A stretch of 17,859 nt of DNA from an uncultured Steroidobacter sp. (GTDB lineage: Bacteria; Pseudomonadota; Gammaproteobacteria; Steroidobacterales; Steroidobacteraceae). The stretch's first letter is position 1, and the number at the start of each line of letters is the position of its first letter. The translations under genes and the position numbers were made by a program. The DNA is taken from contig CAMLEO010000130.1 in assembly GCA_946478975.1 (NCBI GenBank), positions 1 to 17,859 of the forward strand, read 5' to 3'. Below are positions 1 through 7,509 of this stretch, one piece after another. The notes beneath the pieces are model-generated. The model made no database searches. It was not told the DNA's origin and saw only the letters and a program-made list of their open reading frames with translations.

Positions 1-953
1 ATCGTGAGCCTTCGAAACAATGGAACGAGTTGCGCGCTGAAGGAATATCGGCGTACGAACGCGATCGTCGCGCGATTCTGGCGATGGCGGGCACGTATCG
101 GGTGACGTTTGATTTCCTCGAAGTCGTGCCGTTCGCCGTGCAAGACAAACCGGTTGCGCCGTATCAGTCGTGGGGCACGGAAAAAGTTTATGTCGACAGT
201 GACGATGGCAAGGCGATCAGCCTCGTGCACATTCTGGAGATGCGCATCGTGCAGAAGGATGGATCGATCAGCGAGCCGATGGTGACCAAACATTGGCGCC
301 AGGACTGGCAGTACGAGCCGACGTACATCGTGGAGTATCGCGGGCGAGATCAGTGGACGCGTCGAAAGCTCGATGGCGCGCAAGCGAAGGGCGCGTGGTT
401 ACAAACGGTGTATCAAGTCGATGAGTCGCCGCGTTATGCGAGCCTCGGACGTTGGGAACATTCGGCGAGCTTTTCCAGCTGGCTGAGCGGCGATACATGG
501 CGGCCGCTGCCCCGACGTGAGTGGAGTGTGCGAGATGACTATCAAGTGCTCGTTGGCACGAATCGTCACACCATCGGGCCGACCGGATGGGTGCAGGAAG
601 AAAACAATCTCAAGACGGTGCTGACGGAAGCTCGCGCACTCGATCCAGCGAAGCCGTACGTTGCGCGCGAATATGGAGTCGCCCGGTACGAGCGCATTCG
701 CGACGCGGATTTCGCGCAAGCCGACGAGTATTACGGCAAGACCAAACAATTTTGGGATCAAGTGCGCGACGCGTGGGCGCAGGTGTTCAGCAAACGAGGC
801 GAAGTCACATTGAAGGGGCCGGTCGACAAGCTCGGTTTGTTTCATCCGCTGTTCGCGCAAGCGGATGCGATTGCGGAGCAGGGCGCGAAGGCCAGCGAGC
901 AGAACGCGACGGTCATTCAGGACGCGCTGAAGAACATGGGCGCGGTTCATTAA
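1..953 (+). CDS. DUF6607 family protein, 5'-truncated by window edge
   Basis: The reading frame is open from the first bases to a TAA at 951-953. The TTG at 30 is only the first start-like codon, because the frame runs on upstream, so the true start and any signal peptide lie outside the window. From memory the sequence resembles the DUF6607 family: an N-terminal DRRAILAMAGTYRVTFDF motif, then V-x-Y-x-S-W-G-T-E-K-V, a Q-D-W-Q-Y-E-P segment, and a W-S-V-R-D-D-Y region followed by G-P-T-G-W-V-Q-E-E-N-N. No enzymatic function is established for the family and I cannot assign one. It lies 90 bp upstream of hemP on the same strand, but a Fur-type operator separates the two, so hemP probably has its own promoter. 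A role in iron or heme handling would be inference from neighbourhood only. The family call is moderately secure and coding status is secure. Confidence 0.75.
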   Translation, partial: REPSKQWNELRAEGISAYERDRRAILAMAGTYRVTFDFLEVVPFAVQDKPVAPYQSWGTEKVYVDSDDGKAISLVHILEMRIVQKDGSISEPMVTKHWRQDWQYEPTYIVEYRGRDQWTRRKLDGAQAKGAWLQTVYQVDESPRYASLGRWEHSASFSSWLSGDTWRPLPRREWSVRDDYQVLVGTNRHTIGPTGWVQEENNLKTVLTEARALDPAKPYVAREYGVARYERIRDADFAQADEYYGKTKQFWDQVRDAWAQVFSKRGEVTLKGPVDKLGLFHPLFAQADAIAEQGAKASEQNATVIQDALKNMGAVH

Positions 954-1527: not shown

Positions 1528-1709
1528 CTCGGGTGATGACAGACGACGATCGCGGCCTGGAGGTCGCGCAGCTGCAGTCGGTGCTGCAACGGATTCAAAG
1601 CGCGTTGCGCGATGTACCGCTGGCGCAGCGGGAGTACATCGCGAACGCTTTGTTGACCCTAGCGGTTTCGCGTCAGACGGATGCCAGCACGCGAGCGGCG
1701 CGCGGCTGA
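1518..1709 (+). CDS. Small hypothetical protein, convergent overlap with flgN
   Basis: Unrecognised. From ATG 1518 it encodes 63 aa; a GTG at 1497 in the same frame would add seven. The ATG lies inside the last codons of the preceding membrane-protein ORF, so the two may be coupled. Predicted content is mostly alpha-helical: a run rich in Leu, Gln, Arg and Ala (V-A-Q-L-Q-S-V-L-Q-R-I-Q-S-A-L), then Y-I-A-N-A-L-L-T-L-A, then a polar tail. No transmembrane segment or catalytic motif is visible. Its last 37 bases overlap the 3' end of flgN on the other strand. A strong inverted repeat at 1608-1643 lies inside it, so the apparent reading frame could be incidental to a structured 3' region. Coding status is uncertain. 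Confidence 0.42.
   Translation: MVLTRVMTDDDRGLEVAQLQSVLQRIQSALRDVPLAQREYIANALLTLAVSRQTDASTRAARG
1608..1643. repeat. Strong stem-loop between convergent transcripts
   Basis: CGCGATGTAC (1608-1617) and GTACATCGCG (1634-1643) are perfect 10-bp inverted arms. Inside them CGCTG (1618-1622) and CAGCG (1626-1630) pair around a GCG triloop, leaving only GGA (1631-1633) unpaired: 15 base pairs in 36 bases. On the minus strand it lies 30 bases past the flgN stop codon, where a 3'-end structure for flgMN mRNA would be expected. No U-tract follows on either strand, so it is not a standard intrinsic terminator. Confidence 0.6.
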
Positions 1710-2158
1710 GTTTCGAACGCGCCCTGGCGTCCGTAAACTTTTGGCTGACCGGCGCGGCCGGTGACGATGTCGAGCATGCCTTGCACGCGATTCAAACGCG
1801 CGGTGACCAGGGCACCATTGCGATCGTTTGCTGAGCGGCAACGATCGGCGCGCTCGGCGCAAGCGGCCCAGCGACGGCGCAATGCTTTAGTCGGATCGCA
1901 CCAAGCGAGGATGCGGTCAAGGCCGGTTTTATCGGCGGGAACATTCAACGCACGGCACAGCGAGCGCCGGTCGTCTTCAATGCGCATCAAGACGCCGATG
2001 CAGTTCTGACGCGCGACGCCGGTGCGATCGAGGCCTTCGATGTCGTTCGCGACCAGCAACTCATGTTCGCGGTCGAGCAGTTGTTGTAACTGATCGAGCG
2101 TGCCGGATTCTTCGGCAATCAATTTATCGAGCGTATGGCGACAGACAACCGGATCCAC
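1673..2158 (-). CDS. flgN: Flagellar export chaperone FlgN
   Basis: A 161-aa, mostly helical protein. FlgN is a cytosolic type III export chaperone that binds the C-termini of the hook-filament junction proteins FlgK and FlgL and delivers them to the export gate. The call rests on the long amphipathic helix (T-L-D-Q-L-Q-Q-L-L-D-R-E-H-E-L-L), the family-typical C-terminal G-Q-P-K-V-Y-G-R-Q-G segment, and its place directly after flgM. Start is GTG 2158; AAGGAGA (2167-2161) is strong but only 2-3 bases away, and no other usable start is in frame. It lies 51 bases after flgM, so the two are probably cotranscribed from the FliA promoter upstream of flgM. Its 3' end overlaps a small convergent ORF by 37 bases. 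Confidence 0.9.
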   Translation of the reverse strand: MDPVVCRHTLDKLIAEESGTLDQLQQLLDREHELLVANDIEGLDRTGVARQNCIGVLMRIEDDRRSLCRALNVPADKTGLDRILAWCDPTKALRRRWAACAERADRCRSANDRNGALVTARLNRVQGMLDIVTGRAGQPKVYGRQGAFETQPRAARVLASV

Positions 2159-2209
2159 GATCTCTCCTTACGTCGTCGAAAGGGCCTGCGGCCGCTTTCG
2201 ACCAGAAAA

Positions 2210-2521
2210 CTAGCGGGCTGCTCCCAATTCCCGATCCATGCGGAGCAGTTTATCGGCGATGCGCTCCGGCACCACCTGGTAACTACCGTCTTCGATTGCC
2301 GAGCGGATCGCGGCGACTTTCGCCTCGTTCACGACCGGCAAGCTGTTCACCGTCTGTTCCAGCGACGCCAGCTGGCGCGCCTGGTCAGTAATCTGCACAG
2401 GACTGGCTGGCTTGCCCGCCGCTTCGGGGGCATTGGCCACGCCATCGCGTGCTCGCGACACCGACTTGTCGGTGCCGATCTGCACAGCGGGGTTCTGGTA
2501 ACCGGTGATTTTGGTCGTCAC
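2210..2521 (-). CDS. flgM: Anti-sigma-28 factor FlgM
   Basis: A 103-aa protein with the FlgM layout. A disordered polar N-terminal half carries export information. The C-terminal half has the FliA-binding helices: V-Q-I-T-D-Q-A-R-Q-L, then K-V-A-A-I-R-S-A-I-E-D-G-S-Y-Q-V, then E-R-I-A-D-K-L-L-R-M-D. FlgM holds FliA inactive in the cytoplasm until the completed hook-basal body exports it, which delays flagellin and cap expression. Start is GTG 2521 with GAGGAGA seven bases upstream. A near-consensus FliA promoter at 2598-2624 drives it, so FliA activates its own inhibitor, the usual feedback loop. flgN follows downstream. Confidence 0.93.
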   Translation of the reverse strand: MTTKITGYQNPAVQIGTDKSVSRARDGVANAPEAAGKPASPVQITDQARQLASLEQTVNSLPVVNEAKVAAIRSAIEDGSYQVVPERIADKLLRMDRELGAAR

Positions 2522-2826
2522 GTCCCGATCTCCTCAAAAGGGCCGAAGGAGCTCCATGTCTTTCGGCTGCGGCGACAACAACGCCGCTCGATGAGAGTTA
2601 GCGGCCGCAATTCTGAGAACTTTAGCAACCTCATCGGCCACGGCCTCAGAGGGGCCTTAGGGGAATCTCGCAAGTGCGCCCGCTTGACGTGAGAATAGGT
2701 CAAATCACCGTGTTTCCAGCCCTCCCGCACCCCGATGGGGGTTAACAAAACTTTGTGAGTCGTCGCACATCGACACCACAGGGAATCCCTGAGTGTCAGA
2801 AATCCGCCGCGCTCGTGAGCGTGTAT
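2522..2826 (-). other. flgA-flgM intergenic region (305 bp)
   Basis: This gap between the flgA stop and the flgM start holds the FliA promoter for flgM and the flgM Shine-Dalgarno. I see no gene in it. A small hairpin, ACCCC-GATG-GGGGT (2729-2742), and a GGCCTC/GGGGCC inverted repeat near 2649-2664 lie between flgA and the promoter. Neither is followed by a T-tract on the minus strand, so termination after flgA is not clear and read-through from flgA into flgMN remains possible. Confidence 0.6.
2598..2624 (-). promoter_or_regulatory. FliA (sigma-28) promoter of flgMN
   Basis: Read on the minus strand: TAAAGTTC (2624-2617), an 11-base spacer, GCCGCTAA (2605-2598). The enteric FliA consensus is TAAAGTTT-N11-GCCGATAA, so 7 of 8 bases match in each element with exact spacing. 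It lies about 75 bases before the flgM start codon. Confidence 0.9.
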
Positions 2827-3552
2827 TTAGAAACCGACTCGCACTGCGCCGTCACTTTCCACCACACCTTCCACAATCTTGAGCGAGCTCACATTCTGGA
2901 CCCGCACACGGTCCGATTCGGCGCCTTCAGTCAGCGCCTGGCCTTGAGCGCGGATCTGCACCGGACCGTTGGCGGCGATCAGCGTGACCTGCTGGCCACG
3001 ACGCACGAGCAAGTCCGGCACGAGCATATCGACCGTGAGCGCCGTTCCGACAGGCAGAGCGCGTTTGAGTCGGTGGCCCTGCAGGCTCGAGATGTCATTG
3101 ATGAAAGTCGAGGCGGAGCCGGGCATGCGGCGGACCTGCGGCTCGACGTCGGCAAGCTCCACGCGCGAGCGGCGAGCCAACGGCCGGCGGAGCACCAGCA
3201 CCGACACTTCGACTTCCACCGTCACCGGCACATAAATAGTCCAGGAGTTCGTTTGCGGGCAGCGCACGCCGATGGTCAGGCGAGCGGCGGTCATGCCCGT
3301 GCCTTGTGAGAAGGCTTCGAGCGGCGATGCGCACTGGTCCAGGCGCAGGCGCGGATCCAAGCGTCCGGCCGTCACAAAATGTTTGGCGGAGCTTTCCGGC
3401 AGGGAAGCCCGTACGAACTGCTCGGCGGCCGCCTGAATCGATTCGGGCGATTGCACACCGGCGCTCGCATTCGCTGCAAACAGCAGCGCGGCGAGGGCTC
3501 CGAGAATAAAACGATAGCTGATCACGTTAGCGGTCGAAGAATGTCGTCTCAT
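2827..3552 (-). CDS. flgA: Flagellar P-ring assembly chaperone FlgA
   Basis: A periplasmic chaperone that helps FlgI subunits form the P ring in the peptidoglycan layer. From ATG 3552 it is 241 aa. A signal peptide (basic M-R-R-H, hydrophobic F-I-L-G-A-L-A-A-L-L-F, cleavage after A-N-A-S-A near residue 31) is followed by a variable N-domain. The SAF/ChapFlgA domain fills the C-terminal half: V-L-R-R-P-L-A-R, Q-G-H-R-L-K-R-A-L-P-V-G-T-A-L, V-R-R-G-Q-Q-V-T-L. The frame opens further upstream to 3651, but that extension crosses the sigma-54 promoter and would precede the signal peptide, so it is rejected. The start remains slightly uncertain: the predicted sigma-54 transcription start near 3560 leaves an 8-base leader. 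A GTG at 3525, giving M-I-S-Y-R-F-I-L-G, is the alternative. The gene is divergent from flgB. Confidence 0.93.
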   Translation of the reverse strand: MRRHSSTANVISYRFILGALAALLFAANASAGVQSPESIQAAAEQFVRASLPESSAKHFVTAGRLDPRLRLDQCASPLEAFSQGTGMTAARLTIGVRCPQTNSWTIYVPVTVEVEVSVLVLRRPLARRSRVELADVEPQVRRMPGSASTFINDISSLQGHRLKRALPVGTALTVDMLVPDLLVRRGQQVTLIAANGPVQIRAQGQALTEGAESDRVRVQNVSSLKIVEGVVESDGAVRVGF

Positions 3553-3570
3553 TGACGCTGCCTGGAATAA

Positions 3571-3586
3571 AGCAAGGGAAATGCCA
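3571..3586 (-). promoter_or_regulatory. Sigma-54 promoter of flgA
   Basis: Minus-strand sequence TGGCAT-TTCCC-TTGCT fits the RpoN consensus TGGCAY-N5-TTGCW, with GG (-24) and GC (-12) separated by the required 10 bases. The predicted start near 3560 is only about 8 bases from the flgA ATG at 3552, which is unusually short and raises the flgA start question. Confidence 0.78.
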
Positions 3587-3669
3587 GATACCGCGCACGT
3601 CGCCGGATCACGCGGGGAGCTTGCGAGCCCGCCGCACGAACTGTGACGCATGCAACAAATCGTCTCGAT

Positions 3670-4375: not shown

Positions 4376-4789
4376 ATGTCCTCATTCAAGATTTTCGATA
4401 TCGCAGGCTCGGGCATGAGCGCGCAGTCGGTGCGCCTCAACACCACCGCCAGCAATCTCGCCAACGCCGAGAGCGTGAGCGGCGACCCCAACACGGTTTA
4501 CAAGGCCAAGCACCCGCTGTTCGAAGCGATCCGCAACGGCCTCGGCAAGGACGCGTCCAGCACCGGCGTTGCGGTGAAAGGAATATTCGAGAACCAGGCG
4601 CCGCCGAGCGCGCGCTACGAGCCGGGCAATCCGCTGGCGGATACCAACGGCTATGTCTATTCGCCCAACGTCAACAGCGTGGAAGAGATGGTCGACATGA
4701 TCTCGGCGTCGCGTTCGTATCAGAACAACGTCGAAGTGATGAACACCGCCAAGGACATGATGTTGGCCACGCTGCGGCTCGGCCAGTAA
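4376..4789 (+). CDS. flgC: Flagellar proximal rod protein FlgC
   Basis: A second proximal rod subunit, 137 aa. The N-terminal rod motif reads M-S-A-Q-S-V-R-L-N-T-T-A-S-N-L-A-N-A-E-S, followed by the FlgC-typical A-K-H-P-L-F-E. The conserved C-terminal block is Y-S-P-N-V-N-S-V-E-E-M-V-D-M-I, then S-R-S-Y-Q-N-N-V-E-V-M-N-T-A-K-D. These two ends form the coiled-coil rod core in axial proteins. It follows flgB after 44 bases and precedes flgD by 15. The Shine-Dalgarno is weak (GCGAG about 11 bases upstream), so translational dependence on flgB is possible. Confidence 0.97.
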   Translation: MSSFKIFDIAGSGMSAQSVRLNTTASNLANAESVSGDPNTVYKAKHPLFEAIRNGLGKDASSTGVAVKGIFENQAPPSARYEPGNPLADTNGYVYSPNVNSVEEMVDMISASRSYQNNVEVMNTAKDMMLATLRLGQ

Positions 4790-4804
4790 CGGGAGTTTTG
4801 AGCT

Positions 4805-5479
4805 ATGACCACGACCACTGACCCGATTGCTTCTTACGCCGCGCAGACGCAGGCCGCACTGGCCGCCGCGCAGTCGAAGAAGAACGACCAGACGCTCGGC
4901 ATCGAGCAGTTCCTGACGCTGATGACGGCGCAGCTGAAGAACCAGGATCCGATGAAGCCGCTGGAAGGCACCGAGTTCATTTCTCAGCTGGCGACGTTCG
5001 GCACCGTGTCCGGCGTGCAGGAAATGAAGGAGTCGATGGAGTCGCTCGCGACCTCGCTGCGCTCGACGCAGACGTTGAACGGCTCGTCCATGCTCGGCCG
5101 GGACATTCTCGCCGAGGCGGACAGCTTCACGCATACGCAGGGCGGCACCGTGGGCGGCGAGATCAATGTTCCGGACGGCACGACGGCATTGCAGATTCGT
5201 ATCACCGACTCGAGCGGTACGGTGGTGCGCGAAATGAATTTGGATACGGCCGCGGGCGACCGCTCGTTCTCCTGGGATGGATTGAAGAACAACGGCCAGC
5301 CGGCGGACTCGGGCAAATACGATATCGAAGCGGTCGCGACTGTCGCGGGTCAAAGCGGCTCGCTGCCGTTGATGCTGGCGGGGCGCGTGTCCAGCGTCAG
5401 CATCGTCGGCACCAATCTCATGTTGAACACTCCCGCGCTGGGCGCGGTGGATATGAACAACGTGCGCCGCGTGATGTAA
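4805..5479 (+). CDS. flgD: Flagellar hook cap / assembly protein FlgD
   Basis: FlgD sits at the tip of the growing hook as a temporary scaffold for FlgE polymerisation and is later replaced by FlgK. The 224-aa product has the N-terminal FlgD region: Q-T-L-G-I-E-Q-F-L-T-L-M-T-A-Q-L-K-N-Q-D-P, then F-I-S-Q-L-A-T-F. An Ig-like/FlgD C-terminal domain follows, around residues 105-190, with the S-F-S-W-D-G and G-K-Y-D-I-E-A motifs that commonly end this fold. Start ATG 4805 is preceded by GGGAG at about nine bases. It is cotranscribed with flgC and flgE. Nothing in it departs from the family. Confidence 0.96.
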   Translation: MTTTTDPIASYAAQTQAALAAAQSKKNDQTLGIEQFLTLMTAQLKNQDPMKPLEGTEFISQLATFGTVSGVQEMKESMESLATSLRSTQTLNGSSMLGRDILAEADSFTHTQGGTVGGEINVPDGTTALQIRITDSSGTVVREMNLDTAAGDRSFSWDGLKNNGQPADSGKYDIEAVATVAGQSGSLPLMLAGRVSSVSIVGTNLMLNTPALGAVDMNNVRRVM

Positions 5480-5514
5480 CGCATCTCTCAACAGACATTT
5501 TTTAAAAGGTTTCC

Positions 5515-5528
5515 AGGAGCAATCCACG
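5515..5528 (+). promoter_or_regulatory. flgE ribosome binding site and ACG start
   Basis: AGGAG (5515-5519) is followed by six bases and then ACG (5526-5528), which sits exactly where the conserved FlgE initiator Met should be. No ATG, GTG or TTG occurs in this frame from the upstream stop (5472-5474) until TTG 5649, so the ribosome binding site decides the start. Confidence 0.75.
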
Positions 5529-6749
5529 TCATTCGGCATCGCGCTCAGCGGTCTCAACGCGGCACAGTCGGATCTCAACGTCACCGCGAACAACATCGCC
5601 AACTCCAACACCAACGGCTTCAAGCAGTCGCGTTCGGAGTTCGCCGAGTTGTTCGCCGTGTCTCCGTACGGCGTGAATCGCAACGCGCACGGCAATGGCG
5701 TCAAGGTGGCGGCGGTCGCGCAGCAATTCACCCAGGGCAACATCAACACCACCGGCAACAGCATGGACCTGGCGCTCAGCGGCCAGGGCTTTTTCGTGCT
5801 CAGCGACGGCGGTTCGCACGCGTATACACGTGCCGGCGCGTTCCAGGTGAACAACGACGGTTACGTCGTGAATGCACAGGGTCAGCGCCTGCAGGTCTAT
5901 CCGCCGTCGGCCACCGGCAACTTCAACACCAGCACGATGTCGGATCTGCGCCTCGTGACCAGCGAAAGTTCGCCGCAGCCGACGTCGAATGTGGAGACGG
6001 TGTTCAACCTGCCGTCCGCCGCGTCGGTGCCGACCACGACTCCTTTCAATGCAGCTGACGAAACGAGCTACAACACCGCTCGTTCGATGACGGTGTATGA
6101 CTCGCTCGGCGCAGCTCACACCACCAGCATGTACTACGTGAAGACGGGCACGAACACTTGGGACGTGCACGTCGCCATCGACGGCAATCAGCTTGGCACG
6201 CAGGCGCTGGTATATGACTCGAACGGCCGCCTGACGTCGCCCGCCAATGGTTTGGCGGTGATGCCGACGTACGACGCTGCTGCGGGTCTGTCCACTGGCG
6301 CGTCGCCGTTGAATCTCACTTTCGATCTGTCGAAAACCACGCAGTTCGGCGATCAGTTCACGATGACCTCGATCACGCAGGACGGTTACACCACCGGCCG
6401 CCTGATTGGCATCGATATCGACTCCACGGGCGTCGTGCAGGCGCGCTTCACCAATGGCCGTTCGACGCAGCTCGGTCAGCTGGCGATTGCGAACTTCTCC
6501 AATCCGCAGGGCTTGCAGCAGCTCGGCGACACCAACTGGGCGCAGACCAATGCTTCCGGTCAGCCGTTGAACGGCCAGGCCGGCAACTCGGGCTTCGGCC
6601 TGGTGCAGTCGGGCGCGCTCGAAGCGTCGAACGTCGACATCACCGCACAGCTGGTCAACATGATCACCGCGCAGCGCAATTTCCAGGCGAACGCGCAGAT
6701 GATCCAGACGTCCGACCAGATCACGCAGACGATCATCAATATTAGATAG
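5526..6749 (+). CDS. flgE: Flagellar hook protein FlgE, apparent ACG start
   Basis: FlgE polymerises into the hook, the universal joint between rod and filament. From ACG 5526 the product is 407 aa, normal for the family. Residues 2-20 read S-F-G-I-A-L-S-G-L-N-A-A-Q-S-D-L-N-V-T, followed by A-N-N-I-A-N-S-N-T-N-G-F-K, the indispensable axial-protein N-terminus. The first ordinary start codon in frame, TTG 5649, would remove 41 residues including this motif. Downstream are Q-G-N-I-N-T-T-G-N-S-M-D-L-A-L-S-G-Q-G-F-F, the central hook domains, and the C-terminal motif A-S-N-V-D-I-T-A-Q-L-V-N-M-I. Either initiation really uses ACG, which is very rare in bacteria, or a T-to-C sequencing or assembly error hides an ATG. 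An AT-rich stretch, TTTTTTAAAA, lies in the 46-bp gap before it. Confidence 0.93.
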   Translation, partial: TSFGIALSGLNAAQSDLNVTANNIANSNTNGFKQSRSEFAELFAVSPYGVNRNAHGNGVKVAAVAQQFTQGNINTTGNSMDLALSGQGFFVLSDGGSHAYTRAGAFQVNNDGYVVNAQGQRLQVYPPSATGNFNTSTMSDLRLVTSESSPQPTSNVETVFNLPSAASVPTTTPFNAADETSYNTARSMTVYDSLGAAHTTSMYYVKTGTNTWDVHVAIDGNQLGTQALVYDSNGRLTSPANGLAVMPTYDAAAGLSTGASPLNLTFDLSKTTQFGDQFTMTSITQDGYTTGRLIGIDIDSTGVVQARFTNGRSTQLGQLAIANFSNPQGLQQLGDTNWAQTNASGQPLNGQAGNSGFGLVQSGALEASNVDITAQLVNMITAQRNFQANAQMIQTSDQITQTIINIR

Positions 6750-6765
6750 TCGGTAGCCATCACCC

Positions 6766-7509
6766 ATGGATCGTTTCCTCTACATCTCGATGTCGGGCGC
6801 CAAGGAGACCTTGCGCGCCCAGACCGCGAACAACCACAACCTCGCCAATGCGAGCACGACCGGTTTTCGCGCCGACATGAGCGCATTTCAAACGCGCATG
6901 GTCGCCGGGTCGGGATATGCATCGCGCGCGTACGCAACCAACTCGACCACGGGTTGGGATTCGACGCAGGGCGCGCTGGTGTCGACGGGGCGCGATCTGG
7001 ATGTGGGCATCAACGGTCCGGGCTGGCTTGCTGTGATGGGCCCAGACGGTCGCGAGGCTTACACGCGCGCTGGCGACCTGCGTGTCGATACAAATGGATT
7101 CTTGATGACGGGCGCCGGCCACCAGGTGATGGGCGAGGGCGGTCCGATCACTGTGCCGCCGAACACGTCGCTGACCATCGGCAGCGACGGCACGATTTCC
7201 GTGATTCCGCTCGGCCAGGGTCCGGAAACGACGGCGACCGTCGGCCGCATCAAGCTGGTGAATCCGCCCAACGCCGATGTCACTCGCGGCGAAGACGGTT
7301 TGTTTCGTAGCACGACCGGCGCCGATCTGCCGGCGGATGCGAGCGTGAAGCTGTCGACGGGCACGCTGGAGACCAGCAACGTCAACGTCGCCGATGCGAT
7401 GGTGAACATGATCGAGCTGTCGCGCCGCTTCGATCTGCAGACCAAGGCCATGCGGACGGCCGAAGAGAACGCGGCTACTTCGGCCCAGCTGCTTCGTAGC
7501 AGCGGCTGA
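6766..7509 (+). CDS. flgF: Flagellar proximal rod protein FlgF
   Basis: A 247-aa rod protein homologous to FlgE and FlgG. The start M-D-R-F-L-Y-I-S-M-S-G-A-K-E is the characteristic FlgF N-terminus, followed by N-H-N-L-A-N-A-S-T-T-G-F-R. The middle has G-P-G-W-L-A-V-M-G-P-D-G and the Y-T-R-A-G-D-L block shared by hook-family proteins. The C-terminus has L-E-T-S-N-V-N-V-A-D-A-M-V-N-M-I-E-L-S-R-R-F. FlgF lies between the FlgB/C part of the rod and FlgG. ATG 6766 is 16 bases after flgE; no strong Shine-Dalgarno is visible, so coupling to flgE translation is likely. Confidence 0.96.
   Translation: MDRFLYISMSGAKETLRAQTANNHNLANASTTGFRADMSAFQTRMVAGSGYASRAYATNSTTGWDSTQGALVSTGRDLDVGINGPGWLAVMGPDGREAYTRAGDLRVDTNGFLMTGAGHQVMGEGGPITVPPNTSLTIGSDGTISVIPLGQGPETTATVGRIKLVNPPNADVTRGEDGLFRSTTGADLPADASVKLSTGTLETSNVNVADAMVNMIELSRRFDLQTKAMRTAEENAATSAQLLRSSG

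Follow-up and report, generated by a model that had tools for sequence, protein, structure and literature searches.

Flagellar cluster and the flgE gene

The window, that is, the whole stretch of 17,859 nucleotides analysed here, carries a flagellar gene cluster. The genes flgN, flgM and flgA are encoded on the minus strand (1673-3651), and the plus strand carries flgB to flgL, followed by fliC, flaG and fliD. The names flgD, fliC and fliD were assigned from best matches scoring under the curated cut-offs. Both of the window's nearest named relatives, Povalibacter uvarum and an uncultured Steroidobacter, belong to the Steroidobacteraceae, and membership of the window in this family is inferred from them. 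No Rfam families or tRNAs were found within the window. At the edge of the cluster, a 307-aa ORF (30-953, plus strand) matches the Pfam family DUF6607, whose function is unknown, with 209.9 bits. Two antisense frames are open on the minus strand, one of 490 aa over flgC to flgE (4382-5854) and one of 412 aa over flgE (5529-6767), and both are probably shadow frames of GC-rich coding sequence.

FlgE is the structural subunit of the hook and is required in many copies. In the window, flgE sits between flgD and flgF, as in known flgE systems, and the flgD stop lies 46 bases ahead of an ACG codon at the flgE initiator position (Table 1). The frame opened by this ACG reads T-S-F-G-I-A-L-S-G-L-N-A-A-Q. 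Read from 5526, the protein passes the curated model NF004238 (497.1 bits, cut-off 400) and contains the four Pfam domains PF00460, PF22692, PF07559 and PF06429 (Flg_bb_rod, D1, D2 and C-terminal). It is like known FlgE in sequence, domains, length and gene position, and differs from it in codon 1, where ACG replaces ATG. The codon at 5526-5528 is thus not a standard start, which weakens the case for FlgE expression but leaves that for a flgE gene untouched. The initial annotation had named the gene flgE and placed its start at an ACG six bases after AGGAG; the model match, the alignment of this codon with the ATG of relatives and the six-base spacer between 5515-5519 and 5526-5528 all agree with it.

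Table 1. Features around the flgE start in the window, and second FlgE homologues encoded in related genomes
Feature	Position	Strand	Remarks
flgD	4805..5479	+	ORF; best NCBIfam match FlgD NF005176, 175.6 bits (cut-off 230)
In-frame stop TGA upstream of flgE	5472..5474	+	Inside the end of flgD, in another frame
Shine-Dalgarno motif AGGAG	5515..5519	+	Read from the sequence; duplex energy -6.9 kcal/mol
flgE, flagellar hook protein	5526..6749	+	407 codons plus stop; NF004238 match, four Pfam domains, no internal stop
ACG at flgE initiator position	5526..5528	+	Aligned codon region is ATG in 164/164 distinct start regions from relatives
TTG, first standard in-frame start	5649..5651	+	Would give a 366-aa product lacking the N-terminal rod-type segment
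Second FlgE homologues	G177:C250:20287-21459; G172:C15:117172-118344; G175:C4:444811-445983; G171:C2:919570-920742		

The flgE frame was scanned from 5475 to 5651 for ATG, GTG, TTG, CTG, ACG, AAG, AGG, ATA, ATC and ATT. Only ACG 5526, ATC 5538, ATC 5595, AAG 5622 and TTG 5649 were retrieved, and there is no ATG, GTG or TTG in this frame between the upstream TGA (5472-5474) and TTG 5649. This TTG is therefore the first standard in-frame start, as had been claimed. The accompanying expectation that automated annotation would truncate the gene also holds for the mechanical ORF list, which starts flgE at TTG 5649 and gives it 366 aa. A single-base change in a start codon can thus make an intact gene seem truncated in a mechanical gene call, and comparison with relatives locates the true start.

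Translation from TTG 5649 would yield a short FlgE and is very improbable. A GGAG motif lies nine bases upstream of this TTG, but the predicted local fold is tighter there than at ACG (-18.0 vs -9.6 kcal/mol). The product would also lose Flg_bb_rod, which is kept in the form read from 5526 and is present in relatives and in those solved hook chains whose match begins at residue 2. One such chain, 3a69_A (402 aa), aligns its own residue 1 with residue 2 of the window FlgE, which is consistent with removal of the initiator methionine; with such removal, the mature N-terminal peptide could be identical whether it began at ACG or at ATG.

Start codons of flgE in relatives

Relatives of flgE were retrieved by whole-gene protein similarity, so that the count of start codons is independent of the start codon itself. 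Among 217 Steroidobacteraceae genomes, 111 had a FlgE match at E 1e-120 or better, the closest with 88% protein identity to the window FlgE, and the starts of all 111 were read. In 110 of them ATG was found either at the aligned codon (96) or one codon upstream (14), and the 111th, read separately, also begins with ATG. In the named collection, ATG was found in all of the best 80 of 251 loci, two of which share the same start region. The two sets have 26 start regions in common, and merging identical regions left 164 distinct ones, drawn from family matches at E 1e-120 or better and from the best 80 of 251 named loci. All 164 carry ATG; it occupies the aligned codon in 149 and the codon just upstream in 15. 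The further-upstream ATG was observed in 15 family genomes (L162, L172, L175, L177-L181, L184, L185, L187-L190 and L199).

None of the 164 distinct start regions has ACG, which is private to the window sequence. As the ACG lies at the exact site of the relatives' ATG, its placement is not due to chance. Two proteins from ENA and JGI sources are the closest, with 94 and 95% identity, and begin with M in their protein records. A control on neighbouring genes, covering up to 86 loci of relatives, gave ATG or GTG for every placed start of flgC (82), flgE (86), flgF (86) and flgG (84), either on the aligned codon or at most five codons from it; flgK, flgL and fliC were placed in this control and left uncounted, their N-termini being less well anchored. 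A non-canonical start common to the relatives examined was rejected on the 164 distinct start regions. None of the titles and abstract openings found in searches of open-licence literature reports a flgE beginning with ACG.

Translation signals and precedents for a working ACG

The sequence context of the ACG is ordinary. Its Shine-Dalgarno duplex energy of -6.9 kcal/mol falls within the range of 11 relatives that start with ATG (-6.6 to -8.5 kcal/mol), and no extended Shine-Dalgarno motif was found at this site. Local folding is likewise within the range of the 11 relatives, both from -30 to +33 (-9.6 vs -8.0 to -12.2 kcal/mol) and from -20 to +20 (-4.2 vs -1.6 to -7.9). A start site that compensates for a weak codon was therefore rejected. 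A private ACG with no compensation points to a single private base change and not to an adapted start codon.

These results bear on the possibility that ACG is a selected, working start, at which inefficient initiation would keep FlgE synthesis low and pace hook completion. Such a start is improbable. Normal spacing from AGGAG and an intact gene speak for it, but FlgE is needed in many copies, and neither of the two testable supports is present: relatives do not share the ACG, and its Shine-Dalgarno motif is not strengthened. Because none of the 164 start regions shares the ACG and the site carries no compensation, the proposal in the initial annotation of genuine flgE initiation at ACG, with hook supply limited as a result, is unsupported, and true ACG initiation appears unlikely. 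It is highly doubtful, though conceivable, that the ACG acts as a rate-setting valve, where rare initiation would give slow, stochastic hook growth and only some cells would get past the hook-completion checkpoint, with FlgM exported and the late genes turned on. If so, one start codon would make motility bistable in a wild population. An ACG that is real and working would be a rare case of bacterial ACG initiation in a gene whose product is needed in many copies, and would link the choice of start codon to the hook checkpoint. Hecht (2017) reportedly measured initiation from every one of the 64 codons.

Natural AUA and AUU starts have been described in Staphylococcus aureus (infC, cvfC1, ccpN and citZ), whose reporter output was about 10% of that from AUG in poor medium and, for one of them, reached up to 30% in rich medium (PMC13009471). 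They resemble the flgE case in that an initiator other than AUG, GUG or UUG follows a Shine-Dalgarno motif. The flgE codon, however, has C in second position and is unshared by relatives; it also lacks the extended Shine-Dalgarno motifs that the authors describe at the S. aureus sites (PMC13009471). The AUA start of citZ is confined to strains of one S. aureus lineage (PMC13009471), so sharing by relatives is no absolute requirement for a non-canonical start. A lineage-private non-canonical start thus has a precedent, which counts against reading the flgE codon as an error or mutation.

Other reports point in both directions. In a mycobacterial reporter, changing ATG to ACG to remove the start caused a significant fall in output, which still stayed above that of a comparison construct (PMC12810186); some output was therefore retained, in favour of a working ACG. 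Against it, U occupies the second position of many active non-AUG codons in reconstituted systems, where GC-rich codons tend to be weaker; section 5 of that report does not name ACG (PMC13232202). Passages of PMC11497404, PMC8708949, PMC11445065 and PMC8266586 on this subject give no efficiency for ACG initiation.

Gene integrity and sequence quality

The window FlgE was compared with 118 homologues, namely 120 listed (the best of 8000) minus two short ones. At the 115 columns strictly invariant in these homologues, the window differs at residue 1 only. Residue 1 is M in the homologue proteins partly by construction, since gene callers write M at this place; the DNA counts given above are free of this weakness. 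When each homologue was left out in turn, 96 showed no departure, 16 showed one, five showed two and one showed three, so a single departure in FlgE is not unusual in number, which tempers the case for an error. A flgE that began to decay long ago was rejected, as only residue 1 departs among the 115 columns.

Eleven flagellar genes translated from the window have no internal stop. Compared with 11 relatives, they depart at 24 of 1514 columns invariant in the others, a test that leaves out flgE residue 1, since the relatives' alignments begin at residue 2. Relatives treated in the same way depart at between 1/1492 and 93/1578 columns, a range that includes the window. The 24 departures are mostly conservative, with a mean BLOSUM62 score of 1.17 and five negative values. 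No further signs of poor sequence near flgE, such as stops or an excess of odd residues, were found in the 11 genes. With no excess of departures and an intact gene, neither an excess of errors nor decay is indicated, and generally poor sequence is unsupported as an explanation. The initial annotation had pictured, as the case against ACG initiation, related genomes that all have ATG and an exception lying in a low-quality region. The former is what was observed in the related genomes examined, whereas the low-quality region was not borne out. One isolated error and one young mutation would both give exactly this pattern.

A probable one-base error or recent mutation

Taken together, the sequence comparisons indicate that a single-base sequence error or a newly arisen mutation most likely accounts for the ACG of flgE, and not a novel mode of initiating the protein. 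The odds that we attach to this and the other readings are judgements and were not calculated. Both a consensus error that hits a start codon and a new mutation of such a codon are rare events, judged to be of a similar order per window.

We consider it about an even bet (a probability of roughly 0.5) that the C at 5527 is a one-base consensus error in a single sequence record. The initial annotation had offered such an error as the competing explanation, and it is now the reading that we favour. In that case, the window flgE would be of the usual Steroidobacteraceae type, its start site would be ordinary too, and it would begin with ATG in the source cell, where the initiator tRNA would pair with AUG six bases past AGGAG and full-length FlgE would be made. 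The error is favoured by the uniform ATG of the relatives, including all 111 matching family genomes, and by the start control of the neighbouring genes. The sole departure at residue 1 in a gene that is not decaying and the ordinary Shine-Dalgarno strength and folding also favour it, as does the fact that the C is known from one record. Against it, the rest of the window looks sound. The position of the codon, its absence from relatives, the intact gene and the ordinary context are observed; that the base is an error and not a genuine private mutation is our inference. The error is put slightly ahead because the change is absent from every other sequence examined.

A genuine recent change to ACG (M1T) in the source cell or strain is a serious contender, although the odds are somewhat against it. 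Hook supply would then be abolished or sharply lowered, weak initiation at ACG giving few full-length FlgE molecules and hooks that are missing or rare. Since an unfinished hook retains FlgM inside the cell and thereby holds late genes such as fliC silent, such a cell would be non-motile or nearly so. A young mutation would leave flgE and its neighbours otherwise intact, as they are. The same ATG-to-ACG change arose in cg3388 of laboratory-evolved Corynebacterium glutamicum, where the authors took M1T as loss of the protein (PMC7764795). As in flgE, the gene is otherwise intact and the change private to one strain; cg3388, however, is a regulator in a laboratory evolution, whereas flgE is a structural gene known from one sequence record. 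Natural flagellar loss also exists, a deletion of the flagellar cluster having been found in five percent of tested Xanthomonas strains, which were non-motile (PMC3826837). Against a recent mutation, a second sequence bearing ACG was not found among the relatives examined.

Other copies of flgE were also searched for. As a source of a viral flgE copy, five viral_contigs stretches matched a pattern, and none of them codes for a relative. Among the six closest genomes, G174 and G173 have no second FlgE homologue at E 1e-25, which weighs against a mutation that could be tolerated. The other four each encode one, about 400 aa long and with 39-40% identity to the window FlgE (Table 1), and the loss of one FlgE could thus be borne, in favour of a recent mutation. 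By their sequences, these second homologues suggest a second flagellar system.
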